Assembly: GCA_015711795.1 (NCBI GenBank)
Contig: JACVJC010000010.1
Coordinates: 1-64,000, forward strand
Direction of reading: 5' to 3'
Source: Candidatus Geothermocultor quzhuomuensis
Lineage (GTDB): Bacteria > Actinomycetota > Aquicultoria > Geothermocultorales > Geothermocultoraceae
Length of the DNA stretch: 64,000 nt
Position numbers and translations under genes: made by a program. A model generated the notes under the pieces. The model ran no database searches. It had not been told where the DNA came from and saw nothing but the letters and a program-made list of their open reading frames with translations. Shown here in pieces: positions 564 to 63,877 of the stretch. Numbering within the stretch: position 1 is the stretch's first letter; every line of letters begins with the position of its first letter.

Positions 564-1415
564 TTAAGTTTGTGCTAGCGATTTGGCTGCTCTTAAGGTA
601 TTTTTTAAAAGCATAGTTACTGTCATAGGCCCTACTCCACCAGGAACTGGCGTAATAGCAGAAGCAACTTCTTTTGCGCTTTCAAAATCAACATCTCCAA
701 CTAGCTTTCCATTAACCCGATTAACACCAACATCAATGACGACCACGCCTTCTTTTATCATATCCCCTTTGATTAAATGGGGCTTGCCTGCCGCTACCAC
801 CAAAATCTCGGCTCTTTTAGTATGGAAAGCTAAATCTCTAGTCCGGGTGTGGCAAATAGTCACCGTAGCGTGTCTTTGAAGGAGCAAAATTGCAACTGGT
901 TTTCCCACAATATTGCTTCTTCCAACAACAACAGCCTCTTTCCCTTTAATTTCTACACCGGTTCTTTCAAGTAGCTCGATTATCCCTTGAGGTGTGCAGG
1001 GAACAAAAGTTTCCTCCCCCAAAAGTAACTTGCCAACATTGACTGGGTGGAAGCCATCAACATCTTTTTGAGGAGAAACTCGATTAAGGATTTCACTCTC
1101 ATTAAGGTGAACTGGTAAAGGAAGCTGAACTAAAATTCCGTGAATTTCGGAATCATTATTGAGCTGGTCAACCAAATTCAAAACCTCATCCTGACTAGCG
1201 TTTTCTGGTAAAGCGTATTTTCTCGAAATGATACCCACTTGTTCACAGGCTTTTTCTTTTTGCCCAACATAAACAAGAGATGCAGGATTCTCCCCAACCA
1301 AAACTACTGCCAACCCAGGTGTAATACCAGTTTCTTTCTTGAATGATTCAACTTCCAAAGTCAAATCCTTCCTAATTTCCTCCCCAATTTCCTTACCGCT
1401 AATTATTTGAACCAT
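564..1415 (-). CDS. folD: Bifunctional methylene-THF dehydrogenase / methenyl-THF cyclohydrolase
   Basis: FolD interconverts 5,10-methylene-, 5,10-methenyl- and 10-formyl-tetrahydrofolate in the cytoplasm, which forms the middle of the methyl branch of the Wood-Ljungdahl pathway. At 283 residues it has family length. Visible are the catalytic segment YVGQKEKAC, the dinucleotide-binding GRSNIVGKPVA and the carboxy-terminal signature PGGVGPMTVTMLL. The ATG is preceded by a good Shine-Dalgarno sequence (GGAGGT). It is the last of four same-strand C1 genes (fhs, acsV, cooC, folD). The 221-bp gap before it holds only low-complexity sequence, so it may have its own promoter. Confidence 0.96.
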   Translation of the reverse strand: MVQIISGKEIGEEIRKDLTLEVESFKKETGITPGLAVVLVGENPASLVYVGQKEKACEQVGIISRKYALPENASQDEVLNLVDQLNNDSEIHGILVQLPLPVHLNESEILNRVSPQKDVDGFHPVNVGKLLLGEETFVPCTPQGIIELLERTGVEIKGKEAVVVGRSNIVGKPVAILLLQRHATVTICHTRTRDLAFHTKRAEILVVAAGKPHLIKGDMIKEGVVVIDVGVNRVNGKLVGDVDFESAKEVASAITPVPGGVGPMTVTMLLKNTLRAAKSLAQT

Positions 1416-1636
1416 TTTTTACCTCCTTCCTATCAAATTCTAAACGAATTTTCTAATGTCTCAATTTGCAGATCTCCCCTTTTTTCTCCCCTCTAAGAAG
1501 CCTGCCTGGGATAGATAGGGAGAGAAAATTGTAAAATCTTCCCATTTACATCCTCCTCCGACTTTGCCCAGGTTAGCTTAATCCCTTCCTGCCAGCGTAG
1601 GGGAACTGCTCACTCCTCTTTCTTCACTTATCACTT
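1416..1636. other. Intergenic gap between cooC and folD, no gene seen
   Basis: No open frame with a ribosome site was found. The stretch is pyrimidine-rich and contains the octamer TGCTCACT at 1607-1614. That octamer recurs in other gaps of this window (2502, 50729, and inverted at 24580). The sequence looks like decayed dispersed repeat. Confidence 0.4.
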
Positions 1637-2389
1637 CTAAATAATCACTTTTTCCACAAGACGGTTAAATTCCCTCACAGCTAATGATTCATCTGGTAAT
1701 TCGATGAGAGAGCGAACTTCCAAATCAAACTGCCAGATTTTTTGGTCAAAGGGTATTGCGCCCAAAAAATTTAAATTTTCTTTTTTTATCCTTTCCCATA
1801 CGCTTTCTTCAATTTTATCAGCCTTATTTATCACCAAAAACATTTCCCCAATCTTTAAATTAAGGGAAATAGCCAGTTTTTTTATCCTCGCCACTGCTTC
1901 TATTCCCCGAGGAGTTGGGTCAGAAATTAAAAATAAGGAATCAATATCTCTCGTAATCCGCCTGCTTAAATGCTCCATTCCTGCTTCATTGTCAATAACA
2001 ATATAAAGATAATTTTCAGCTACTAAATCTAAGTACTTCCGTAAAATATTGTTTATGTAACAATAACATCCAGGACCTTCCGACCTCCCCATAACGAGTA
2101 AATCAAAGCCATCTCCTTCTGAGACTGCTTGCTGCAGCTTTAACTCAATTAAAGTATCTTTAGAAACTCCAACCGGAATTTCCTCAACCTTCTGAGTAAT
2201 TTCTTCCCTTAACTCCCCAATTGTTTGATTGATTTCAATCCCTAAAGCCTCATTAAGATTGGAATTAGGGTCAGCGTCCACTGCTAAAATAGGTTTCTTT
2301 TTTGCCTTTAAAAGATATCTTATTAAAAGAGCCGAAAAAGTGGTTTTACCTGAACCTCCTTTTCCTGCCACTGCCAGTGTCTTGGTCAT
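1637..2389 (-). CDS. cooC: CooC-type CO dehydrogenase nickel-insertion ATPase
   Basis: A MinD/ArsA-type deviant Walker A motif (GKGGSGKTT, residues 9-17), AVDADPNSN and the CYC cysteine pair near residue 109 match CooC/AcsF. This cytoplasmic dimeric ATPase loads nickel into carbon monoxide dehydrogenase/acetyl-CoA synthase. The length of 250 residues is normal. It sits downstream of acsV and fhs on the same strand, supporting a role in the Wood-Ljungdahl carbonyl branch, although the CODH/ACS structural genes are outside the window. The CxC motif separates it from plain ParA proteins. Confidence 0.9.
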   Translation of the reverse strand: MTKTLAVAGKGGSGKTTFSALLIRYLLKAKKKPILAVDADPNSNLNEALGIEINQTIGELREEITQKVEEIPVGVSKDTLIELKLQQAVSEGDGFDLLVMGRSEGPGCYCYINNILRKYLDLVAENYLYIVIDNEAGMEHLSRRITRDIDSLFLISDPTPRGIEAVARIKKLAISLNLKIGEMFLVINKADKIEESVWERIKKENLNFLGAIPFDQKIWQFDLEVRSLIELPDESLAVREFNRLVEKVII

Positions 2390-2608
2390 CTTACCTCCCC
2401 AAACAAACGTCGCTCGTTCTCCCCTCCCCTTAATCCCCTTCCCTACAGCTGGGAGGGAAGGAGAACTGCTCTCTGCTCTCTGCTTGCTGTTACCTGCTAT
2501 CTGCTCACTTTTTACCCACCTCTGGTGGGGCTCAGAATGACGCTCTGCATCACTTTTATCTTTGCTTTTCCCTCGCTTCTCGCCACTCTCTTTTCCCCAA
2601 TATTCGAC
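2390..2608. repeat. Intergenic gap with decayed dispersed repeats
   Basis: The gap between acsV and cooC holds a C-rich/G-rich inverted pair (CCTTCCC/GGGAAGG, about 2440-2461). It also has the motif TTACCTGCTATCT (2490-2502) overlapping TGCTCACT (2502-2509). A close copy of the same motif pair occurs at 50729-50750. No reading frame or RNA structure was identified. Confidence 0.4.
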
Positions 2609-4555
2609 TTACGACCTACCACCTGCTATCAATTTGTCGACGGTTGGAAACAGCTCTGTATTAGTGTGAGGCAAAAAAAGAGCTGAAACATACTCATCAT
2701 AAAATTTGCTACTTGTCGAGAGCTCTAAATAAGTTATTTTTTTAGCTACTTTTTCCGCTTCCTCAATCATCTCCTTAGAAACTGAGGTTAGATAGGCGCC
2801 ATGAAGAGAGCCATTACCCAGAAATTTAAACTTATCGCAGGGAAAATCAGGTAACAAACCTAAAATGATTGCTCTTTCAATATCAAGGTAATTTCCAAAA
2901 GCTCCTGCAATTAATACCTCGTCAATCTGCTTAAAAGAAATGTTTACCGAATTAACTAAAGTTCTTATTCCGGCAAAAACTGCTGCTTTAGCCCGCATTA
3001 AATTGTCAACATCAACTTCAGTAAGAACAATATCCTTTCCCGTTCCACTATCCTCGCTCCAAACTAAGACATACTCATATCCATATTTCCCTTCTCGAAT
3101 CCGATTGCTCTTAGCCTCAAGGTTAAACTTACCCCTTCGATCAACAAGACCTGAAAGAAAAAGCTCTGCCAGAGTATCGATTAAGCCAGATCCACAGAGA
3201 CCAATTGGTTTTTTCCCCCCAATTGTTAAAATCATTGGTTCATATGTTTCAGGAGATATTCTTACTTGCTCAATTGCTCCTCCGGCTGCTCTCATTCCGT
3301 GTTTTATCCCTCCCCCTTCAAAGGCAGGACCAGCTGAGCAAGAACAAGCAACTAACCAGTCGAAATTGCCTAAAACTAGCTCCCCATTTGTCCCAATGTC
3401 TATATAAAGTTTAATCTTTTGACTTTGAAACATCCCTGATGACAAAATCCCTCCAACAATATCAGCCCCAATATAACTGGCGACACTAGGTAAAGCATAA
3501 AGATAAGCTTGAGACGAAAAGCCAATCCCTATCTCCTCAGCTTTAACCCAGGTCGAAAAACTAGTAGCTGGGATATAAGGTTCTTCTCGAATAAACCGAG
3601 GGCTAATGCCAAAAAGAAAATGAAGCATAATAGTGTTTCCAGCTACATAATAAGAAGTAATTTCTTTCTTTTCAATCTTAGCTAGCATAACCAGTTTATT
3701 TATTATTTTATTGATTGTCTCCACCACTAATTGATGAAGTTCCTTTAGCCCTTTCCCTTTTAAAGAATGGATAATTCTTGAAATAACATCGTCTCCAAAG
3801 GTCATTTGGGCATTGTATTCTGATTCTGTAACAATAACATTGCCATTCATTAAATCAACTAACTGTCCAACAATAGTAGTTGTCCCCAAGTCAATAGCCA
3901 CTCCGTAGTTTGCTCTTCTTGTATCTCCTGGCTCAACTTCAACCAGCCACCAGCTACCAAAATGGTCGAAAAGGGTTAAAGTCACTCGCCAATTGCTTTC
4001 TCTTAAAATGCGGGGTAGCTTTCTCAAAACCTCAAGATCAACATAGCTAAAGAATAAACCAATCTCTCTCTTTAGACTTCTTCGGAGTCTCCTTAAGTCG
4101 CTTAAGGTATCTTCAAGGGTAGGCGGAGAAAGTTCAAGATAAACTTTCTTAAAAGAAGGCTCAATCTTAAACGAGGGCAGATATTTTTTCCATTCCTCAG
4201 CCGATAAAACCAACCCACAAATGGGTTGCTTAATTTCCCTTGTCAGTGCTTTTTTGTCCCCAATTAAAGACTCGACTGGAATTCTTGCTTCTAAATCACT
4301 TTGAGGATAAGAAAGACAAGCGAGAGCATAACCTTGTTTAATTTCCTCTTGAGTTAAATGGTGCTTTTCATCCCTTTTCTGCTTTATCTTCCCTTTCCTC
4401 ACAATAATGCGGCATTTTCCACAGGTTCCTTCACCACCACAAGAAGCAGTAATATAAACACCAGCTTTGAGAGCTGCCTTTAAAAGGTTCTCTTCCTCTT
4501 CAATTGGAACAGTTTTATTTTGAGGAAAGAAGGTAACCTTAAAAACTTTCCCCAA
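2609..4555 (-). CDS. acsV: Reductive activator of the corrinoid iron-sulfur protein (RACo)
   Basis: The 648-residue protein starts with a plant-type [2Fe-2S] ferredoxin domain (C39, C45, C48, C80). A linker leads into an ASKHA/actin-like ATPase domain (AIDLGTTT near residue 221, ASYIGADIVGG, DIGTNGEL, AGAFGNYLD). This architecture (DUF4445) is that of RACo, which uses ATP to re-reduce Co(II) to Co(I) in the corrinoid protein that carries the methyl group to acetyl-CoA synthase. Related RamA-like activators serve methylamine or O-demethylase corrinoids. The neighbouring fhs and cooC make the Wood-Ljungdahl role more likely. It follows fhs after 17 bp, so the two are co-transcribed. Confidence 0.88.
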   Translation of the reverse strand: MGKVFKVTFFPQNKTVPIEEEENLLKAALKAGVYITASCGGEGTCGKCRIIVRKGKIKQKRDEKHHLTQEEIKQGYALACLSYPQSDLEARIPVESLIGDKKALTREIKQPICGLVLSAEEWKKYLPSFKIEPSFKKVYLELSPPTLEDTLSDLRRLRRSLKREIGLFFSYVDLEVLRKLPRILRESNWRVTLTLFDHFGSWWLVEVEPGDTRRANYGVAIDLGTTTIVGQLVDLMNGNVIVTESEYNAQMTFGDDVISRIIHSLKGKGLKELHQLVVETINKIINKLVMLAKIEKKEITSYYVAGNTIMLHFLFGISPRFIREEPYIPATSFSTWVKAEEIGIGFSSQAYLYALPSVASYIGADIVGGILSSGMFQSQKIKLYIDIGTNGELVLGNFDWLVACSCSAGPAFEGGGIKHGMRAAGGAIEQVRISPETYEPMILTIGGKKPIGLCGSGLIDTLAELFLSGLVDRRGKFNLEAKSNRIREGKYGYEYVLVWSEDSGTGKDIVLTEVDVDNLMRAKAAVFAGIRTLVNSVNISFKQIDEVLIAGAFGNYLDIERAIILGLLPDFPCDKFKFLGNGSLHGAYLTSVSKEMIEEAEKVAKKITYLELSTSSKFYDEYVSALFLPHTNTELFPTVDKLIAGGRS

Positions 4556-4572
4556 CTAATCACTCTTCCTTA

Positions 4573-6306
4573 TTAAAAAAGACCTACTACCTTCCCATCA
4601 TCATCTATATCAACCTTCATAGCAGCTGGAACTGATGGTAAGCCTGGCATTGTTCGCATTTCACCACAGAGAGGATAGATAAAGCCAGCTCCAATTGAGG
4701 CTCTAACCTCACGAATAGGAAGACGGTAATTCTTAGGAACACCTTTCCAAGTTGGGTCATGGGATATGGAAAGATGGGTCTTGGCTAAATTTATTGGCAA
4801 GTTACCAAAACCAGCCTTTTCGTAGTCAGCAATTTGCTTCTCTGCTTTAGGGGTATAGTCCACTCCATCAGCTCCCAAAAGCTCAAGAGCAATAGTCTCA
4901 ATTTTTTTCTTAATTGGCCAGTCTAAAGGATAAAGAAATCTAAAACTAGAAGGCTTTTCACAAGCTGCTACCACTGCTTCAGCTAATTCAATGGCTCCAT
5001 CTCCACCTTTTTCCCAATGCTCACAGGGGTATGCTCCCTTAGCTCCCGCTTCAATTGCTGCTTCTTTAACTATTTCAATCTCCCTATCAGTATCATAAGC
5101 AAAGCGGTTAATTGCTACAACCACTTGTATTCCAAATTTCTTAGCAATTTCGATATTGGCTTGAAGGTTGCAAACTCCCTTCTTCAGTAACTCCAAATCC
5201 TCATGGGTATAAGCTGGGTCAAGGGAGCGACCAGGAACAACCATTGGTCCACCTCCGTGCATTTTAAGTGCTCTGATAGTTGAAACAATAACGACGCAAT
5301 TTGGAATAAGACCAGAATAACGGCACTTAATATCAAAAAACTTAACCATTCCACAGTCAGCACCAAAACCCGATTCCGTAATAACATAATCAACTAATTT
5401 AAGACCGATTTGGTCAGCTAAAATAGATGAGTTGCCATGAGCAATATTAGCAAAAGGCCCAGCATGGACAAAAGCAGGCTGACCTTCTAAGGTTTGCATT
5501 AAATTGGGTTTTATCGCATCCTTCATAAGAACAGTCATAGCACCTGCTACTCCGAGGTCTTCAGCGGTAAGTGGCTCACCACTTTTGCTATAACCAAAAA
5601 CAATCCGACCAAGCCTTTGGCGCAAATCCTTAAGCCCGGTAGTCAAAGCGAGAATTGCCATTACTTCTGAAGCAACAGTAATATCAAAGCCTGTTTGGCG
5701 AGGACGACCATCCGTTTCATGGCCCAAACCAATAATAACATTGCGTAAAGCTCGGTCATTAACATCAACCACTCTATTCCAAGTAATGCTATAAGGATCA
5801 ATGTTAAGGCGGCGTAAACCAAGCTGAGCTAACTTCTCATCACTCATTCTATCTTCGTGCATAATTCGTGCATCAATTGCGGCTGCTAGAAGATTGTGGG
5901 CAGCTCCAACTGCATGAATATCACCAGTCAAATGAAGATTAAAGTCTTCCATCGGAACAATTTGGGAATAACCTCCGCCAGCCGCTCCTCCCTTTATTCC
6001 AAAGGTCGGGCCTTGGGAAGGCTGGCGAATACAACACATCACTTTCTTACCAATTTTCCCTAGTGCTTGAGTTAAGCCAACTGTAGTTGTTGTTTTACCT
6101 TCCCCTAAGGGGGTTGGAGTTATTGCAGTAACATCAATATATTTACCATTGGGTTTACCCTTAAGCCTCTCGAGAACATCAAGAGTTACCTTTGCCTTAT
6201 ATTTGCCGTAAAGCTCAACCTCATCCTCCTTAAGGCCAAGCTCACTAGCAACTTCTACGATTGGTCTTAATTTTGCTTTTTGAGCAATTTCTAAATCTAC
6301 ACTCAT
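4573..6306 (-). CDS. fhs: Formate--tetrahydrofolate ligase
   Basis: Fhs makes 10-formyl-THF from formate, THF and ATP, the ATP-consuming entry step of the methyl branch. The P-loop [13 protein letters not shown] (near residues 65-77) and the segments [18 protein letters not shown] and [12 protein letters not shown] are diagnostic. The length of 577 residues is slightly above the usual 555-560. The ATG is preceded by AAGGAGGGTG. This is the first gene of the C1 operon. A TTGACA hexamer lies in the 114-bp upstream region, but no convincing -10 at ideal spacing was found. Confidence 0.97.
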
Positions 6307-26966: not shown

Positions 26967-26995
26967 TTGTTAGGCTTCTCAAAAAGTGCTATTAT
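26967..26995 (+). promoter_or_regulatory. Promoter for ybaK / Fe-S-GGDEF / amrS
   Basis: TTGTTA (26967-26972) and TATTAT (26990-26995) are separated by exactly 17 bp. This promoter sits on top of the longest possible ybaK start and therefore supports the downstream GTG at 27051 as the true start. Confidence 0.55.
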
Positions 26996-27050
26996 AACCA
27001 AAGATAAAATAGGTTACTGGAATAACTTAAAAAGATTCTTCGGAGGAGCG

Positions 27051-27518
27051 GTGAAAACAAGTATTGATGTTCATAATTTTCTTCAGGCAAAAGGAATAAA
27101 ACACGAGATTTTTTTAGTTGATACCCCAACCCTAACCGCCCAAAGGGCTGCTGCTTTGCTTGGCTTAAAATCTTGTGAAGTAACAAAGTCTGTCCTCTTT
27201 TTGGTAGAGAAAGAACCTGTTCTTGTTGTTTTGCCTGGTGATTGTCGTGTCTCATATAAGAAAATGAAAAAGGTTTTGGGAACATCTAAAATTAAACTGG
27301 CTTCCCCTGACGAAGTCGTTAAATATACTGGGTACACTTTAGGAGCAACGCCACCTCTAGCTCATCAAACACCTATTAAAGTTTTAATTGACAAAAGGGT
27401 CGCTAAAAGAGAAATAATATATACAGGAGCAGGCGATGTGACAGCAGTCTTAAAGATAAGGTCGGAAGACTTAATTAAGGTCATCGGGGTAGATGTTATA
27501 GATGTTTGCAAGGAGTAG
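27051..27518 (+). CDS. ybaK: YbaK/EbsC-type aminoacyl-tRNA deacylase
   Basis: This free-standing editing-domain protein of about 155 residues has TLTAQRAAALLG, VTKSVLFLVEKEPVLVVLPGD, GYTLGATPPL and a conserved lysine in EVTKS. YbaK-like proteins hydrolyse mischarged Cys- or Ala-tRNA-Pro. The GTG at 27051 was chosen because GGAGGAG precedes it and a promoter lies over the longer alternative (26967, 183 residues). It is followed after 7 bp by the Fe-S/GGDEF gene. The reason for that pairing is not known. Confidence 0.85.
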   Translation: MKTSIDVHNFLQAKGIKHEIFLVDTPTLTAQRAAALLGLKSCEVTKSVLFLVEKEPVLVVLPGDCRVSYKKMKKVLGTSKIKLASPDEVVKYTGYTLGATPPLAHQTPIKVLIDKRVAKREIIYTGAGDVTAVLKIRSEDLIKVIGVDVIDVCKE

Positions 27519-27525
27519 TTAAAGA

Positions 27526-29394
27526 GTGATTTTGATTGAGACTTTAAAGGAGAAGTGTAAACATTGTTTAGCATGTATTAGAACTTGCCCTGTTAAAGCT
27601 CTAAAAGCCAACAAAGATAATGGCTATATGGAAGTCTTTGCTGAGAAGTGCATTTATTGTGGTCAGTGCATAATTTCCTGTGCTCAGGAAGCTAAGATTA
27701 TAAAAGGCGATATTGAAAGGTTAAAAAACTTCTTAAAAAGTAAGAAAAAATTAGTTGCGATTCTTACTCCTGAATATATCGCCTCATTCCACCCAATCTC
27801 ACCCCTCAAAGTTAAAGCAGGTCTTAAAAAACTTGGCTTCTCAGCGGTTGAAGAGACAACCCTCGGCGAGGAGTTGGTAGCTTCGGCATACTTAAAATAT
27901 TTTCGAGACTCGCCTAACTATCCTATCATCAGAACAACCTGCCCTGTAGTAACCAAATGGTTCAAAAAGAATTACCCCAACTTTCTTAAATTTTTAGCTC
28001 CCATAGTTTCACCTCTCATCGCCACAGGAAAGGTAGCAAAAGAAAAGTATGGTCCTGATGCAATAACAGTTGCTATTTCCTCGTGCATTGCTCAAAAGGC
28101 AGAAGCCATTGAAGAAGAAGTAGTTGGTTCAATCAATCTTGTTTTAACATTTAAAGAGTTGAAAAAGATATTTAAAGATAAACATATTAATTTAGAATCT
28201 CTATCCTCAACCGATTTTCCTGAAGGACAACTTATTCTCCCAAGGATGTCTTCAGTTGCCAGCGGTTTTCCCAGGGAAATTTTAAAGAACTATAACTTAA
28301 TCGACCGCGAGATTAAAGTTGTAAGGGGCGTTAATAAATTGGAGAAATTAGTTAGTGCCCTTTCTCAAAACGAGATTAGCTTAAAATTAGTTGATGCTTT
28401 AAACTGTGAAAGCTGTGCTGATGGACCTGGAATCGATAGCAAGATCAGTCTCTATGCTCGACGCAATTTAATCGAAAATTATTATCAAGAAAAACTTAAA
28501 AATACCTCTCCCAAAATCTTTCAAGAATTTTTTTCTCGACTCCCTTCTTTTGACTTAAAACGCACTTTTTTAAGCGAGGAATTTTTCCTCCCCCTTCCAA
28601 CTGAGAATGATATTCAAAATATTCTAATCCAAGAAGAAAAATACTCCAATGAAGATTTACTAAACTGCCGAGCCTGTGGATATGATACTTGCCGCCAAAA
28701 GGCAATCGCTATTTACCAAGGCTTAGCTGACCTTGAAATGTGCTTTCCTTTCCAAAAGAAGATGCTACTCAAAACCGTCTCCCACCTCAAATCACTCTCA
28801 AGAACTGATAGCTTAACAGGAGTATTAAATCATAAAGCCTTTATCGAGGAACTTTCTACTGAGTTCAGCCGCTCAAAAAGGTATAAACTGCCCCTTTCCC
28901 TTTTAATGATTGATATTGACAGTTTTAAAGAAATTAATGATCAATTTGGACACCCCTTTGGAGACAAAATCCTAAAAGGAGTTGCCCGAGTTTTAAAAGA
29001 AAACACCCGTTCAAGTGATATTGTTGCTCGCTATGGTGGAGATGAATTTGCAATCATCCTCCCCCACATCGAAGAAATTGATGCTTTTGCAGTTGGAGAA
29101 AAACTAAGAAAAGCAGTTAGTGAGCTAAGAATAGATAATGGAAGTAACTTTAGGGTAAGTATTAGCGTAGGCATATTTTCAGTTCACGAAGAAATGGAAA
29201 TTGCTGAAGAGCTGCTTGAAGAAGCCGATAAAGCTCTTTATCGAGCAAAAGAAGCGGGGAAAAATCAAACCTGGTTAACAAAAATTGGACAAATTTTTCT
29301 TGATTTGGAAACCAAGATGTCAAAAGAACCCTCAGAAAAAGAAAACAAAAGAAATCTCGGAGGAAAAAGGAATAAAAGAAGCAGTCCTTTATGA
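27526..29394 (+). CDS. Hydrogenase-like iron-sulfur sensor fused to a diguanylate cyclase
   Basis: The 622-residue protein has four modules. First, a 2[4Fe-4S] ferredoxin (C11/14/17/21 and C42/45/48/52). Second, an [FeFe]-hydrogenase large-subunit-like domain with the three cysteine loops as TTCPVV (C139), SSCIAQKAEA (C187) and NCESCADGPG (C294, C297). Third, a four-cysteine Fe-S module (C381, C384, C389, C406). Fourth, a GGDEF domain with GGDEF at 504-508 and a correctly spaced inhibitory RxxD (R495-D498). The first three resemble HsfB-type putative H2/redox sensors. The L3 spacing CxxC, not the CxxxC of active HydA, argues against full hydrogenase activity. It probably makes c-di-GMP under redox or H2 control, which is inference. 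It lies between ybaK and amrS. Confidence 0.88.
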   Translation: MILIETLKEKCKHCLACIRTCPVKALKANKDNGYMEVFAEKCIYCGQCIISCAQEAKIIKGDIERLKNFLKSKKKLVAILTPEYIASFHPISPLKVKAGLKKLGFSAVEETTLGEELVASAYLKYFRDSPNYPIIRTTCPVVTKWFKKNYPNFLKFLAPIVSPLIATGKVAKEKYGPDAITVAISSCIAQKAEAIEEEVVGSINLVLTFKELKKIFKDKHINLESLSSTDFPEGQLILPRMSSVASGFPREILKNYNLIDREIKVVRGVNKLEKLVSALSQNEISLKLVDALNCESCADGPGIDSKISLYARRNLIENYYQEKLKNTSPKIFQEFFSRLPSFDLKRTFLSEEFFLPLPTENDIQNILIQEEKYSNEDLLNCRACGYDTCRQKAIAIYQGLADLEMCFPFQKKMLLKTVSHLKSLSRTDSLTGVLNHKAFIEELSTEFSRSKRYKLPLSLLMIDIDSFKEINDQFGHPFGDKILKGVARVLKENTRSSDIVARYGGDEFAIILPHIEEIDAFAVGEKLRKAVSELRIDNGSNFRVSISVGIFSVHEEMEIAEELLEEADKALYRAKEAGKNQTWLTKIGQIFLDLETKMSKEPSEKENKRNLGGKRNKRSSPL

Positions 29395-30388
29395 GAAGAA
29401 AGAGAAAGGAAAGGTCAAGTGTTATCTTTGCCCGAGAGAATGTATTATTTCTCCTGGGCAGAAAGGAGTTTGTCGAGTTAGAGTTAATCAAGAAGGAAAA
29501 CTCTACACTTTAGTTTATGAAAAGTGCTCCTCAATAGCGGTTGACCCAATTGAAAAAAAGCCCCTTTTCCATTTTTATCCCGGCTCTCAAGTCCTATCTT
29601 TTGGAACTATCGGCTGCAATTTGCGCTGTAAGCATTGTCAAAACTGGGCAATTGCTCATGCAGAACCTCAATCATTTGACCTTGGGTTAACTTCAGTTTC
29701 CTCTCAAGAAGCAGTTGACTTAGCTAAGAAATATCAAGCTTCTGGAATTGCCTGGACTTATAATGAACCAACTATTTGGTTTGAATACACTCTCGACTCA
29801 GCTAAGCTTTGCAAAAAAGAAGGTCTTTATACTGTTTATGTCACCAACGGTTATATCTCTTTTAACGCTCTTGACATGATTGGGCCTTATCTCGATGCTT
29901 TCCGGGTTGATGTCAAAGGTTTTACAGAAAAATTTTACCAATTTTTAGCTGGTGTAAAAGACTTTTCCCCCATCTTAAAGGCAACTGAGCGAGCTAAAGA
30001 AAAGTGGAAGATGCATATTGAGGTTGTAACTAATGTTATCCCAACCTTAAATGACACTGAAGAACATTTTAGAGGGATTGCCCGATGGATAAGAGACTCT
30101 TTGGGAACTGATACTCCCTGGCATATAACTCGATTTTATCCTTATCTCAAGCTTTCTCATCTCTATCCCACTCCAATAGAAACATTAGAAAAAGGGAGAG
30201 AAATTGGGCTTGAGGAAGGATTGTCCTTTGTTTACCTCGGCAATGTCCCTTCTCACCCCGGCGAGCACACCTACTGCCCTAACTGCAAGAGACTAGTTAT
30301 TAAGAGAATGGGCTACTCCATTTCTGTTTACGATGTTGAAAAGGGAAAGTGTAAATACTGCCAAGCAAACTTAAATATCGTTGAGTAA
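29372..30388 (+). CDS. amrS: AmmeMemoRadiSam-system radical SAM enzyme (probable ATA start)
   Basis: A radical SAM protein with CNLRCKHCQNW (CxxxCxxC), an amino-terminal cysteine pair (CYLCPREC) and a carboxy-terminal YCPNC...CKYC pair, all as in AmrS/PflA-like proteins. Family members start around KEALFYE. Here the matching segment IKEAVLYE begins at codon ATA (29372), preceded by GGAGG at ideal spacing (29359-29363). No ATG, GTG or TTG lies nearby in frame. The nearest alternatives are TTGs at 29285 and 29300, which would overlap the GGDEF gene by about 100 bp. From 29372 it has 338 residues. The usual partners AMMECR1 and MEMO are not in the window, and the substrate is unknown. Confidence 0.88.
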   Translation: MKEAVLYEKKEKGKVKCYLCPRECIISPGQKGVCRVRVNQEGKLYTLVYEKCSSIAVDPIEKKPLFHFYPGSQVLSFGTIGCNLRCKHCQNWAIAHAEPQSFDLGLTSVSSQEAVDLAKKYQASGIAWTYNEPTIWFEYTLDSAKLCKKEGLYTVYVTNGYISFNALDMIGPYLDAFRVDVKGFTEKFYQFLAGVKDFSPILKATERAKEKWKMHIEVVTNVIPTLNDTEEHFRGIARWIRDSLGTDTPWHITRFYPYLKLSHLYPTPIETLEKGREIGLEEGLSFVYLGNVPSHPGEHTYCPNCKRLVIKRMGYSISVYDVEKGKCKYCQANLNIVE

Positions 30389-58880: not shown

Positions 58881-60065
58881 TTATAAAATTTTGTGTTGAT
58901 GTAATTTCTTATTGCTTGATTTGTAGTTAACAACTCTATTTCTTCCTCTCCGTTTAGCTAAATAAAGAGCTTGGTCTGCACAAGCAATTAAATCTGATTG
59001 TTTAGTTGCATCAATGGGATAAGTTGCTACTCCCAAGCTAATAGTTCTTCTAACTAAGGGATGTTTTTTATTTCCTTCAAATGTCTCATTCTCAAAAGCT
59101 TTCCTGATTTTTTCTGCTACCTCAAATGCTTTTTCTTTGTCGGTTTGAGGTAGCGCAACAACAAACTCCTCACCTCCATAGCGGGCAACAATGTCAATCT
59201 CTCGAACATTTTGTCTGAGGACTTTTCCCATTCTCTTAAGTACGAGGTCGCCTTTAGGGTGACCAAAAGTATCATTAAATTTTTTAAAGTGGTCGATATC
59301 AATCATAATTAAGGAAAGAACCAATCCGAAACGCCTTGCTCGACTGAGCTCCTCTTCCAAGCGCTGATGAAAATGCCCATGGTTGTAAAGCTCAGTTAAT
59401 CGGTCAGTAACGGATAATTTTTCAATTTCTTGGTAAAAGAGAGCATTTTGTAAAGCAGCGGCTGACATTTGGCCAATCTCAGATAATCTTTCCAATTCAT
59501 CCTTGGTTAGATTTCGTTTCTCTTTTGAAGCTATTCCTAAGGCGCCTAAAACTCTTTCTTTGATTACTAAAGGAACAGCACTGATTGATTTGGGGGTCTT
59601 TTTAAAGATTGTACATTTAAAAGCACTTTTTTCCAGATCATCGATATTAATTAATTTGCCACTTGAAACAGACTGACCAAGAATTCCCTGCCCAACTTTT
59701 ATTTTTTTTTCTAAAAACTTTGGGTTAATGCCCTGGCTTGACTTAAGAAAAAGCTCATTCTTTTCAGGATCGAGGAGGTAAAGGAAACTCATCTCAGCAC
59801 CGAGGATGCCAACTAATCCATCCATAATAGTTTTAGCAACTTCATCTAAGTCAAGGGTCTTGGCAAGAAGTTTTGTAAGTTCATGAATGAAATAAATTTC
59901 AGCATAAAGAGCTTCTTGTTCCTGATAAGTTTTTTCTATTTCTTTCATTTTTTTTAATTTTTCTTCCTGTCTCTTCAGTCTCTTTAGAGCAGAATCTAAT
60001 TCTTTTTTAAGTTTAACTATATTGCTTTTTCTCTTTTCTTCCACCATTTTTTTGGGTAAACTCAT
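58881..60065 (-). CDS. GAF-GGDEF diguanylate cyclase
   Basis: A lysine-rich coiled coil (about residues 10-50) leads into a GAF-type sensor domain (about 60-205, with GILGAEMSFLYLLD and AVPLVIKERVLGALGIAS) and a GGDEF domain. The active-site loop is ARYGGEEF and the RxxD inhibitory site (REID) is five residues upstream, so it should make c-di-GMP and be product-inhibited. The ATG at 60065 follows AGGAAGG and gives 394 residues. An ATG at 60101 would add 12 and overlap cheD. It is last in the chemotaxis operon, linking c-di-GMP to motility. Confidence 0.9.
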   Translation of the reverse strand: MSLPKKMVEEKRKSNIVKLKKELDSALKRLKRQEEKLKKMKEIEKTYQEQEALYAEIYFIHELTKLLAKTLDLDEVAKTIMDGLVGILGAEMSFLYLLDPEKNELFLKSSQGINPKFLEKKIKVGQGILGQSVSSGKLINIDDLEKSAFKCTIFKKTPKSISAVPLVIKERVLGALGIASKEKRNLTKDELERLSEIGQMSAAALQNALFYQEIEKLSVTDRLTELYNHGHFHQRLEEELSRARRFGLVLSLIMIDIDHFKKFNDTFGHPKGDLVLKRMGKVLRQNVREIDIVARYGGEEFVVALPQTDKEKAFEVAEKIRKAFENETFEGNKKHPLVRRTISLGVATYPIDATKQSDLIACADQALYLAKRRGRNRVVNYKSSNKKLHQHKIL

Positions 60066-60075
60066 TTTTGCCTTC

Positions 60076-60531
60076 CTAAATCTCTTTTTGCCCTTTAGCA
60101 TAAGATTTTACTACTATTTTCCCATTTTTAGTATCAAAAAAAACACTTCGAGCATAGTCACCACCGGTATCCTCTGAAACAATTTTAATTCTTTCTTTAA
60201 AAAGAACATCTTTAACAACTGAAACATTCCGTTGTCCAACTCTACTATTTTCCGACCCAATAAACATAAAGGCTCCGCCAACTATTTTAGCAACTATTCT
60301 TCCCCTCCTAGCACCTAATCTAACCATTTTTTTAATCATATAAGGAATAGCTGTATTAGCATATTTAACAGCGTTTTCCGGTTTAGCGGTGGGGCTTTCA
60401 GGGAGCAAAATATGAGCTAAGGCACCAATTGATTTCTGATTATCATATAAAGCAACGGCAACACACGAACCCAAAGCTAAACTAACGAGAAGCTGCCCGC
60501 TTGAAGAAACCTTCATGTGAGCTAAGCCCAC
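60076..60531 (-). CDS. cheD: Chemoreceptor glutamine deamidase CheD
   Basis: The 151-residue protein has the CheD active site: catalytic cysteine in LALGSCVAVALYD and histidine in GALAHILLP. RGRIVAKIVGGA and VGQRNV are also conserved. It deamidates glutamines in chemoreceptors and binds CheC. The start is an ATG or a nearby alternative, just after cheC. Chemoreceptor genes are not in the window. Confidence 0.94.
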   Translation of the reverse strand: MGLAHMKVSSSGQLLVSLALGSCVAVALYDNQKSIGALAHILLPESPTAKPENAVKYANTAIPYMIKKMVRLGARRGRIVAKIVGGAFMFIGSENSRVGQRNVSVVKDVLFKERIKIVSEDTGGDYARSVFFDTKNGKIVVKSYAKGQKEI

Positions 60532-60554
60532 TTGGACCTCTCTTTTTGACAGTT

Positions 60555-61169
60555 TTAATTCACCCCAATTTTTTTAAAAATCATTTCCCAAGATTTAGGT
60601 TCAGCAATAAAAAATATGACTGCTTTAATTCGGCTAGCTTTCTCAATTATTTCCGTCTCAACGATGAGAGCTTTTTCTGCTTGAAATCCAAGTTCAGCAA
60701 GGGAAGAAGAAAAAATCGCACCAGCCATATCCATAGCAAAACTTGGAACTGAGGGTATTAAAACAATGTTAATGAATTTAGCTAAGGCATTAAGGTAAGA
60801 AGCAGCTAAGATATTGCCAACTTGCCTTAATAATTCCCTTTCTAGTTCCCCAATAATCTTGGTTGTCCCAAAATTTTTTCCTTCAAGCAAATCAACCATT
60901 TTTAAACCGCTCTTACTTGGAACAAGAAAAAGGATTCCACCAGGAATTTCCCCCAAAACTTTGTTAAAAACTGCAACGACTGGTATTTCAGCTCCTCCCA
61001 TAACTTCGGTCAGTTTCTTTAAGGGAACTAAATTGGCCTCCGGCACAGTTATCAAGATTTTTCGGTCAACAAATTGGGAAAGAGCAGTAGCAGCATGACC
61101 AGCTCCAATAGTCCCAATTTCTTTTAAAACATCTTTTTGAAGCTCCTTTAAGGAATTTCTCTTAGCCAT
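60555..61169 (-). CDS. cheC: CheC-type CheY-P phosphatase homologue with altered active sites
   Basis: CheC proteins have two D/SxxxExxNx22P phosphatase motifs. Here the first reads D13, E17, T20 (Asn replaced), P43. The second reads E112, Q116 (Glu replaced), N119, P142. The 22-residue spacing to proline is exact in both, so the identification is firm. Each site, however, lacks one of the two residues thought to be needed for CheY-P hydrolysis. It may mainly bind and regulate CheD. The ATG at 61169 follows GAGGAAGG. A TTG at 61184 would overlap cheA. It has 204 residues. Confidence 0.85.
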   Translation of the reverse strand: MAKRNSLKELQKDVLKEIGTIGAGHAATALSQFVDRKILITVPEANLVPLKKLTEVMGGAEIPVVAVFNKVLGEIPGGILFLVPSKSGLKMVDLLEGKNFGTTKIIGELERELLRQVGNILAASYLNALAKFINIVLIPSVPSFAMDMAGAIFSSSLAELGFQAEKALIVETEIIEKASRIKAVIFFIAEPKSWEMIFKKIGVN

Positions 61170-61180
61170 TTTGTCCTTCC

Positions 61181-62797
61181 TCAACCTTTTTCCTCAACTA
61201 ACCCTGAAGAAAGGCTTCGAGTATCAAGAATTAAAGCAACTTTACCATCCCCTAAAATTGTTGCCCCTCCCAACCCTTTTAAACCTTTAAACATTTTATC
61301 TAGGGATTTGATGACCACATCCTGCTGCCCTAAAATTTCATCAACAATTAGGCCCACTTTTTTACCAGATACTTCAACAACAACAGCTTGCTTATTGCGT
61401 ATATCTTCATCGTGTGGGAAGTGAAAGGCTTCTCTTAAATCGAGAAGAGGAATAATTTCCTGATGAAGTTTAATTACTTTTTCTCTTCGGATTCTCCGAA
61501 CCCTTTTATTTTTAAGACTTGAAATCTTAACAATATTATTGAGAGGAATGGCTAAAACATTTCTTTCTACTTTAACGAGTAAAGAGGGAATAATAACCAA
61601 GGTAAGAGGGAGCCTTAAGATAAATTGGCTTCCCTTCCCAGGTTGTGTTTTTATCTCAAGTGTTCCCCCCAGCTCCTCAACCTTATTTTTGACAATATCC
61701 ATTCCAATTCCCCGACCGGAGAGAGGGGAAACTTTTTTAGAAGTGGTAAAACCAGGTTCACAGATAAAATAAACTAAATCTTCATCGCAAATTGTTTTAG
61801 CTTTCTCCGGATGAAGAGAGCCAATCTCAATTGCTCTTTTTCGAACTTCTTCAAGATTAATTCCTCTTCCATCATCAGTAACTTCAATGACAACAGAGTT
61901 CTTCTCTTTTCTAGCTTTTAAGTGAACTACGCCCTCTCTCTTCTTTCCCTTCCTTTCCCGTTCTTCTGGCAACTCGATACCGTAGTCTATTGCATTTCGA
62001 ATCAGGTGAAGGATGGAGTCACTAATTTCATCGAGAATCATCCGATCTAATTCAATTTCCCCTCCTTCAATGAGAAACTCTACTTCCTTATTAAGTTGCC
62101 GAGCTATGTCCCGAGCAAACCGAGGAAAACGGTTAAAGACATTTTCCACCGGGATCATCCTTGCTTTTATTACCTCATCCTGAAGGAGAAGAGAAACTCT
62201 TTTTAATTCATCAAGGGCTTCACTTAATTGTTCAAGATTGTAGCGGGAGCCAATTCTTTCAAGTTTAGAGCGGGCAATGATTAACTCTCCAGTTAGATCA
62301 ACCAAGTTATCAAGATGAGAGAGGTTAATCCGAACAGTTTTGGATTTAAGAGAAGGAGTAAAGGATTCTTTAGCTTTAGGAGAAATTTTCTCTTTTCTCT
62401 CGAGTCTGACTTTTCCCACCATCCCTACCGTTGCTTCTTCTATTTTTTTAAGCAAACCCTTTAAATTAATTGAAGGTTTTTCTCCTGATGAGGCTAACTC
62501 AATTAAATTTTGAAGGGTATCATGACTTTCAAAGAGCAAGTCAATAGTGGAAGAAAAAAGAGGCTGACCTTTCTTTAAGAAATCAAGGAGGGTTTCTAAT
62601 TTATGAGTTAATTGAGCAATTTTATCAAAACCCATTGCGGCTGCCATACTTTTAAGTGAATGGACACTCCGGAAAATTTCTTCAAGGGGTTCAATGTTGT
62701 CAGGTTCCCTTTCTAAAAGGAGGAGAGAGTTAATAAAGTTTTGAAGAAGTTCACGAGATTCAGTATTAAAAAGAGAAAGGTAATCAAACTGATTCAA
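61181..62797 (-). CDS. cheA: Chemotaxis histidine kinase CheA (no P2 domain)
   Basis: Domain order: an Hpt (P1) domain with phospho-accepting H46 (SVHSLKSMAAAMGF), a short linker and a P3 dimerisation helix pair (LDNLVDLTGELIIARSKLER). Then a P4 ATPase (HLIRNAIDYG, VTDDGRGI, SGRGIGMDIV) and a P5 CheW-like domain. The 538 residues are shorter than classic CheA (about 650-700). No P2 CheY-binding domain fits between P1 and P3. It phosphorylates CheY and CheB. cheW is not adjacent. Confidence 0.94.
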   Translation of the reverse strand: MNQFDYLSLFNTESRELLQNFINSLLLLEREPDNIEPLEEIFRSVHSLKSMAAAMGFDKIAQLTHKLETLLDFLKKGQPLFSSTIDLLFESHDTLQNLIELASSGEKPSINLKGLLKKIEEATVGMVGKVRLERKEKISPKAKESFTPSLKSKTVRINLSHLDNLVDLTGELIIARSKLERIGSRYNLEQLSEALDELKRVSLLLQDEVIKARMIPVENVFNRFPRFARDIARQLNKEVEFLIEGGEIELDRMILDEISDSILHLIRNAIDYGIELPEERERKGKKREGVVHLKARKEKNSVVIEVTDDGRGINLEEVRKRAIEIGSLHPEKAKTICDEDLVYFICEPGFTTSKKVSPLSGRGIGMDIVKNKVEELGGTLEIKTQPGKGSQFILRLPLTLVIIPSLLVKVERNVLAIPLNNIVKISSLKNKRVRRIRREKVIKLHQEIIPLLDLREAFHFPHDEDIRNKQAVVVEVSGKKVGLIVDEILGQQDVVIKSLDKMFKGLKGLGGATILGDGKVALILDTRSLSSGLVEEKG

Positions 62798-62806
62798 GAA
62801 AACCCC

Positions 62807-63877
62807 CTAACTTAATTTTTTCTCGGAGAAAGATTGAGTTAGTTTAACAATTTCTTCGCCTAAAGAACCTAAAGGAAGAACTTTGTCAACACAACCTAGG
62901 TCAATAGCTGATTTAGGAATGCCAAAAACGGTGCTACTCTTTTCATCTTGAACAAGAATTTTTCCCCCTTTTTGCTTAATAGCTTGAGCACCTTGAGCTC
63001 CATCATGACCCATCCCTGAAAGAAGAACACCAATGGCTTTTTCCTTATAAACTTGAGCAACCGATTTCATCATTTTATCGATTGAGGGCTTAACACAATT
63101 GACGGGAGGACTGTCATCCAATCTCACCACTATTTTCTTTCCTTTTTTTCTAACAGTTAAGTGATACCCACCAGGAGCTAATAAGACTTGATTAAAGGAA
63201 AGGGGTTGATTGTCTTGAGCCTCTTTTACCTCAATTTGACATCGATTGCTTAAGTTTTTTGCTAGAGCTTTGCTAAAGCCAATGGGTAAGTGCTGGACAA
63301 TGAGGATGGGTAAGGGAAAATTAGAAGGAAGTGAACTAAGAATTACTTCTAATGCTTTTGGCCCCCCTGTTGAGGCTCCAATTGTAACAACACCTGAAGT
63401 TCCGGAAGGAAAAGAAGCGGGTAATTCTCGAGTCTTAATTGGCTGAAAACTTACCCGTTTGACCATAAAAGCTGCCTTTACCTTTTTTATCAATTCTTCT
63501 TGAACTTGTTCCAAATCAATTGAGAAAGTTCCTGAAGGCTTAAGAACAAGGTCAATAGCTCCAAGGTGAAGAGCTTCAACAGCAATTTCTGGATCAGTTA
63601 GCCCTGTCAAAACAACAATTCTAGCCGAAGAAATTGCCATGATTTCTTTTATAACTCTTAAACCATCCATTTTAGGCATATAAACATCTAGGGTGATGAC
63701 ATCAGGATTGATTTCTTTAACTTTTTCTACTGCCTCAAGACCATCTCTGGCAACATCAACTACTTCAATATTTTTATCTGAATCAAGCATGTTGGAGATA
63801 AGTCTCCTCATCAAAGCAGAATCATCAACGACTAGAACTCTTATTCTTTTTTTCGCCTGAAGAATTTTACTTTCCAC
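62807..63877 (-). CDS. cheB: Protein-glutamate methylesterase/deamidase CheB
   Basis: A receiver domain with VVDDSALMR and phospho-acceptor D64 (TLDVYMPKMDG) is joined to a methylesterase domain. The catalytic Ser lies in IGASTGGPKA, the His in VQHLP and the Asp in GMGHDGAQG. It removes receptor methyl groups to reset adaptation. The GTG start overlaps the end of cheY by 11 bp. It has 356 residues. Confidence 0.95.
   Translation of the reverse strand: MESKILQAKKRIRVLVVDDSALMRRLISNMLDSDKNIEVVDVARDGLEAVEKVKEINPDVITLDVYMPKMDGLRVIKEIMAISSARIVVLTGLTDPEIAVEALHLGAIDLVLKPSGTFSIDLEQVQEELIKKVKAAFMVKRVSFQPIKTRELPASFPSGTSGVVTIGASTGGPKALEVILSSLPSNFPLPILIVQHLPIGFSKALAKNLSNRCQIEVKEAQDNQPLSFNQVLLAPGGYHLTVRKKGKKIVVRLDDSPPVNCVKPSIDKMMKSVAQVYKEKAIGVLLSGMGHDGAQGAQAIKQKGGKILVQDEKSSTVFGIPKSAIDLGCVDKVLPLGSLGEEIVKLTQSFSEKKLS

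Follow-up and report, generated by a model that had tools for sequence, protein, structure and literature searches.

A hydrogenase-like iron-sulfur sensor fused to a GGDEF domain, a probable redox-responsive diguanylate cyclase of Actinomycetota

The window analyzed here is the whole stretch of 64,000 nucleotides that opens contig JACVJC010000010.1 (positions 1 to 64,000, forward strand) of Candidatus Geothermocultor quzhuomuensis, a member of the Actinomycetota class Aquicultoria (hereafter, the class). One of its genes encodes a protein in which ferredoxin, hydrogenase-like, Fe-S, and GGDEF parts follow one another (Table 1). The gene starts with GTG and runs for 622 codons without an internal stop, the opposite strand being stop-rich, and about 12 nt 5' of the start there is an AAGGAG resembling a ribosome-binding site. 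A gap of 7 nt separates the GTG from the stop of the preceding gene, which encodes a YbaK-family aminoacyl-tRNA deacylase and is probably co-transcribed with the fusion gene; a deacylase of this type is the upstream neighbor of the sensor gene in 19 of the 29 class loci. The frame of an AmmeMemoRadiSam-type radical SAM protein (AmrS) overlaps the 3' end of the fusion gene, and the real start of AmrS probably lies further inside that frame. The same contig also carries Wood-Ljungdahl genes at 564-6306 on the minus strand, which we named by eye as FolD, a CooC-like ATPase, a RACo-like corrinoid activator, and formyl-THF synthetase.

Table 1. Genes, domains, and residues of the fusion locus (window coordinates)
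Feature	Coordinates	Strand	Evidence or conservation
YbaK-family aminoacyl-tRNA deacylase	26967..27518	+	PF04073; directly 5' of fusion gene
Fer4-Fe_hyd_lg_C-FeS-GGDEF fusion protein, 622 aa	27526..29394	+	ORF and Pfam; forms a single conserved clade across 28 Actinomycetota genomes sampled
2x[4Fe-4S] ferredoxin domain, residues 8-52; C11, 14, 17, 21 and C42, 45, 48, 52	27547..27681	+	Pfam Fer4_10; cysteines conserved
Fe_hyd_lg_C (hydrogenase H-domain fold), residues 74-301	27745..28428	+	PF02906, 134 bits; PDB profile match; Foldseek
E83 at CpI S232 position	27772..27774	+	E in 25/25 class proteins
E115 at CpI A272 position	27868..27870	+	E/D in 25/25 class proteins
L1 loop RTTCP, ligand C139 (CpI C300); CpI C299 replaced by Thr	27931..27945	+	
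L2 loop CIAQKAE, ligand C187 (CpI C355); Q190 in place of CpI K358	28084..28104	+	
L3 loop NCESCADGP, ligands C294 and C297; CxxC, not CxxxC	28402..28428	+	CxxC in 25/25 class proteins
FeS module Cx2Cx4Cx16C, C381, 384, 389, 406, fourth [4Fe-4S] cluster	28660..28749	+	PF04060; motif as in TmHydS/TamHydS
Continuous helix 407-426, from just after ligand C406 into GGDEF domain	28744..28803	+	AlphaFold2 model
GGDEF diguanylate cyclase domain, residues 427-581	28804..29268	+	PF00990, 164 bits; Foldseek match to WspR, PleD
Inhibitory-site motif RSSD 495-498 and active-site GGDEF 504-508	29008..29049	+	Sequence motifs
AmmeMemoRadiSam-type radical SAM protein (AmrS)	29285..30388	+	TIGR04337, 333 bits against a cut-off of 220

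The original prediction, made from the letters of the DNA, had read all four parts in a single open frame, and both Pfam and the reading-frame check agree with it. The hydrogenase-like domain scores far above the PF02906 cut-off of 22.1 bits, and the PF04060 match covers residues 379-408 with 35 bits. The cysteine set and the intact RxxD motif were also read correctly: the protein has 16 cysteines, all of them in the four Fe-S groups of Table 1, and RSSD sits five residues ahead of GGDEF. These cysteines, including all four ligands of the H-domain cluster, [4Fe-4S]H, are kept across the alignment of 29 class sequences, with the sole exception of a C14 to Ser change in L025. The profile of the sensor half, i.e. 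the protein up to the GGDEF domain, matches the [FeFe]-hydrogenases CpI, HydA, and DdH in the PDB. The AlphaFold2 model of the whole protein has a mean pLDDT of 91.4, and the best solved structures matching its sensor half in Foldseek are the [FeFe]-hydrogenases CbA5H, DdH, and HydA of T. kivui. Together, the profile match and the Foldseek match exclude an unrelated fold for this region. It is a true [FeFe]-hydrogenase homolog, which in sequence and predicted fold matches the group C/D "sensory" enzymes (HfsB/HydS, written "HsfB" in the original prediction). In the model, helix 407-426 joins the FeS module to the GGDEF domain without interruption, and we propose that it acts as a signaling helix.

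We then consider how widespread this architecture is. The sensor half was found in 34 of 60 related genomes, in one copy each and nearly always in the window's class. A class-wide search identified exactly one Fe_hyd_lg_C protein in 33 of the 36 class genomes, and this protein always belonged to the family of the window protein. Relatives of the sensor half are much more broadly distributed, with more than 570 of them in many phyla in a scan of GTDB contigs. Among the best 80 of these relatives, histidine kinases and sigma-54 activators bearing a Fis helix-turn-helix make up most of the outputs, a few have PAS domains, and a GGDEF output is found only in four Actinomycetota matches (L040-L042 and L048). 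Since elsewhere the same half drives kinases and sigma-54 activators, we regard it as a signal input module. A loose text pattern had pointed to a second GGDEF fusion in Thermosediminibacter (L072), which was rejected because its sequence and Pfam matches show a PAS domain. When 397 Actinomycetota genomes were searched with the full protein, the fusion turned up in the window's class and, outside it, in a single genus, g120, of a second class (genomes G202, G232, and G251). In the tree, the 28 GGDEF forms all group in one clade (99% SH-aLRT), which puts the fusion well outside what chance could produce and excludes a one-off fusion or an assembly error. In other words, the survey of the architecture across genomes suggested by the original prediction reveals one conserved Actinomycetota clade: the fusion is single-copy, near-universal in the window's class, and found only in this phylum. 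On the tree, it has a single origin.

The gene neighborhoods of the two classes have aspartokinase, ASD, AmrS, TauE, and a LytS/LytTR pair in common, and about ten class loci continue with formyl-THF synthetase and RACo. The LytS-type kinase and LytTR regulator lie downstream of the sensor in around 21 of 29 loci (the L151-L175, L191-L193 group), and the genes for formyl-THF synthetase and RACo often come next. Around the sensor gene of the window, no such pair was seen.

The output domain has kept its motifs. Both GGDEF and RxxD are intact in 29 of the 30 class proteins, that of the window included, whose domain thus looks catalytically intact from its sequence. The exception in the class is L029 (genome G001), where the motif is broken to GEDNF and RxxD is kept. 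The three g120 proteins (L191, L192, and L193, from G202, G232, and G251, respectively) also keep RxxD next to a broken motif, RGDQF or GGDQF. These four proteins are likely to be c-di-GMP receptors instead of cyclases. They lend some weight to the idea that the domain serves mainly as a receptor throughout the family, binding c-di-GMP through RxxD, in which case the signal would travel in reverse, with c-di-GMP acting on the redox module or on a partner. The intact motifs of nearly all class proteins, the window's among them, speak against this idea, which we consider highly improbable. The search of the window's genome for a PilZ receptor gave none, which counts against a cyclase role of the fusion. 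A further GGDEF protein is encoded in the window, where, as the original prediction had noted, it closes a chemotaxis operon: the cheB-cheA-cheC-cheD operon (58881-63877, minus strand) ends with a GAF-GGDEF protein (58881-60101) carrying GGEEF and RxxD.

What the sensor half may perceive depends on whether it holds the [2Fe] unit, the hydrogen-binding half of the H-cluster. The lysine presumed to bind a CN ligand of this unit, K358 in CpI numbering, is found in 4 of 25 class proteins, against all 36 relatives whose genomes encode a catalytic [FeFe]-hydrogenase and all 30 catalytic enzymes. Position S232 shows serine in 35 of the 36 relatives from such genomes, and position A272 shows alanine in 34 of these 36 and in 30 of 30 catalytic enzymes, where the class proteins have the acidic residues listed in Table 1. 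In characterized enzymes, a CN ligand of [2Fe] is salt-bridged to a lysine (PMC6100070) and S232 is hydrogen-bonded to a CN ligand (PMC12138974). The g120 proteins have Arg at 358 and Glu at 232, with the same letters as the class proteins at the E83 and E115 positions, and the tree traces the E83 change to one event. The K358 position does not follow hydrogenase content without exception: the lysine is kept, in the absence of HydF, by four proteins of the class and by two from Dehalococcoidia, and a test of K358 against hydrogenase content on independent pairs, of which there are only 2-5, gave a sign test that is not significant. The L3 loop, which the original prediction took as a pointer to a sensing cluster, turned out to be a weak, non-diagnostic character. 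While CxxxC is present in all 30 catalytic enzymes, CxxC is shared by 50 of the 73 wider relatives, including many whose genomes encode HydF and a catalytic [FeFe]-hydrogenase, so that we rejected it as a mark of H-cluster loss.

The H-cluster is built by the maturases HydF and HydG. Neither was found above its curated cut-off in any of the 36 class genomes, the window's included, in a search where the control genome of T. maritima was positive. The sub-cut-off HydF matches in class genomes span the N-terminal GTPase part only, as expected of other GTPases. An assembly gap is excluded as the explanation for the class, since 26 of the 36 genomes are near complete (at least 90%) and all 26 lack both genes. 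The window's genome, which is 100% complete, has no further Fe_hyd_lg_C protein, and no other [FeFe]-hydrogenase was found in the 36 class genomes. The picture is similar in genus g120, where the fusion is the one Fe_hyd_lg_C protein and HydG was not found. Among the wider genomes, HydF is present in 0 of 9 lacking a catalytic [FeFe]-hydrogenase versus 25 of 37 having one (Fisher p = 0.0003, uncorrected for kinship).

Eleven wider genomes (G063, G064, G066, G068, G069, G070, G073, G074, G086, G091, and G103; loci L046, L049, L051, L056, L058, L059, L062, L063, L077, L085, and L114) encode a catalytic-type [FeFe]-hydrogenase although neither maturase was found in them. Three of the 11 are Ignavibacteria, where the absence of maturases may be systematic rather than a random loss in draft genomes, and it is possible that the hydrogenases of these 11 genomes are maturase-free or differently matured. 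Because of them, the lack of HydF and HydG is by itself no proof that an H-cluster is missing.

These observations bear on the hydrogen sensing put forward in the original prediction, in which the protein would carry a full H-cluster, made by unrecognized maturases, and H2 binding would alter c-di-GMP synthesis. This is in line with the conservation of all four H-domain cluster cysteines, with the hydrogenase-bearing genomes that lack recognizable maturases, and with TamHydS and TmHydS, which share the FeS module and in which alterations at C299, M353, and M497 do not prevent H-cluster binding. Members of the [NiFe]-hydrogenase family are present in most class genomes as well, and therefore H2 probably matters to these bacteria. 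(Many of the class [NiFe] large subunits contain one in-frame TGA, e.g. G003:C5:52068-53468, which probably encodes selenocysteine.) Yet, the class as a whole lacks both maturases and has no other [FeFe]-hydrogenase, K358 is lost, and the acidic residues at the S232 and A272 positions would face the anionic [2Fe] unit. We conclude that H2 sensing is very unlikely and that the window protein very probably lacks a [2Fe] site; it is the maturase-less exceptions and the small number of K358 changes that keep us from grading this absence, and the redox-driven cyclase discussed below, any higher.

An emptied pocket might have been put to another use. E83, E115, and E116 could hold a metal ion or some new ligand, in which case what is bound there, and not the redox state, would be the signal. 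The invariance of E83 and the Glu/Asp at E115 across the class proteins, where relatives have Ser and Ala, the same letters in g120, and the single origin of the E83 change are all compatible with such a pocket, but the acidic residues could be merely structural, and we see this as unlikely. In a broader form of the idea, a hydrogenase fold without [2Fe] and with an acidic pocket (E83, E115/E116) would bind some other signal, so that in Actinomycetota an old H2 sensor would have given rise to a novel type of c-di-GMP input; we judge this rather unlikely.

Comparison with known systems clarifies what is new in this protein. The hydrogenase fold has been used for other ends in Nar1/NARFL (IOP1), a eukaryotic cytosolic Fe-S assembly factor. 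That protein has the hydrogenase fold but lost the function linked to H2 (PMC8924675); set side by side with it by description, the window protein is alike in having the fold without H2 function and differs in that Nar1 has no signaling domain. Closer in domain content is TamHydS of Thermoanaerobacter mathranii (group D, M2e), which has a 2x[4Fe-4S] ferredoxin domain, an H-domain, and the Cx2Cx4Cx16C module, and whose alterations at C299, M353, and M497 we also count as a likeness (PMC8163306, PMC13104023). However, TamHydS binds an H-cluster, whereas the window protein has replaced K358, S232, and A272, has a CxxC L3, lacks HydF and HydG in its genome, and is fused to GGDEF. The PAS-linked group C enzymes (TmHydS, HfsB, and RaHydS; M2f) have the same sensor module and domain order, with a signaling domain after the FeS module, but they have a CxxxC L3 and their genomes encode HydF. 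Hence, the FeS module is directly followed by GGDEF in the fusion, by PAS in group C, and by nothing in group D. Loci L072, L099, and L107 look like the PAS-linked type of group C.

Other relatives resemble the HydDB type C1, "histidine kinase-linked (putative)", a label given here by likeness and not by HydDB's own classing, or are linked to sigma-54 activators. Their sensor halves are around 31-39% identical to that of the window protein, their output is likewise fused directly, and CxxC is common in their L3. They differ by their HisKA-HATPase or AAA/Fis outputs, and in most of the genomes examined, a catalytic [FeFe]-hydrogenase is also encoded and K358 is retained. In the kinase-linked relatives (L049-, L053-, and L067-type; G064:C6, G067:C97, and G077:C30), the sensor gene is often directly beside the catalytic [FeFe]-hydrogenase gene, which supports a real control by H2 or redox in these systems. 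The [FeFe] types of HydDB include kinase-, chemotaxis-, and phosphatase-linked ones, and among its [NiFe] types is one with a putative link to a cyclase. The latter, group 2c or "diguanylate cyclase-linked (putative)", also ties a hydrogenase-like input to c-di-GMP, with an unrelated [NiFe] fold (PMC5037454).

Since the hydrogen-binding iron core seems lost and four clusters are kept, the protein probably reports redox state rather than hydrogen. A role in converting redox state into c-di-GMP is likely, and it is the most sensible reading of the sequence. We thus favor a cytosolic diguanylate cyclase that responds to redox state, with a sensor that derives from a group C/D-type sensory [FeFe]-hydrogenase and has lost the [2Fe] half of the H-cluster, and regard this reading as probable. 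In this model, the ferredoxin domain would trade electrons with the low-potential (ferredoxin) pool, or suffer damage by oxidants, and these electrons or oxidants would act through it and through the H-domain [4Fe-4S] cluster. The cluster state would then be relayed to the C-terminal FeS module, whose last ligand, C406, lies at the foot of helix 407-426. A change of shape at the C-terminal cluster would pass along this helix to a dimeric GGDEF domain, where the helices of the dimer would set the register of the two half-sites, such that c-di-GMP output tracks redox state, and the RxxD site would supply feedback by product inhibition. In TamHydS, the C-terminal cluster gave no response to H2 (PMC13104023), a point against this relay.

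The protein might instead report oxygen or the state of Fe-S supply. Its clusters would be built under anoxic, iron-replete conditions and lost upon exposure to O2 or iron limitation, and it would be this loss, not a reversible reduction, that switches the cyclase. Clusters of the ferredoxin type are oxygen-labile, the FeS module directly adjoins the signaling helix in the model, and the Wood-Ljungdahl genes of the window suggest an anaerobic metabolism. On the other hand, a chain of electron-transfer-type clusters exceeds the needs of an O2 switch, and we find this alternative rather unlikely.

We found no published fusion of an [FeFe]-hydrogenase-like protein with GGDEF in the literature searched, whose coverage of subscription journals is thin. 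The fusion is a real, conserved variant of the sensory-hydrogenase family that is apparently undescribed. Proteins of this group are usually labeled putative H2 sensors. Here, gene content and pocket residues indicate that the H2-binding half is gone and the signaling use is kept, i.e. that Fe-S sensing by a hydrogenase fold is separable from H2. The contrast between the relatives keeping K358 and those lacking it suggests a simple rule to tell which "sensory hydrogenases" should bind an H-cluster. Through the redox-responsive cyclase, the low-potential redox state likely feeds directly into c-di-GMP signaling in these uncultured anaerobes, which carry a Wood-Ljungdahl gene cluster.
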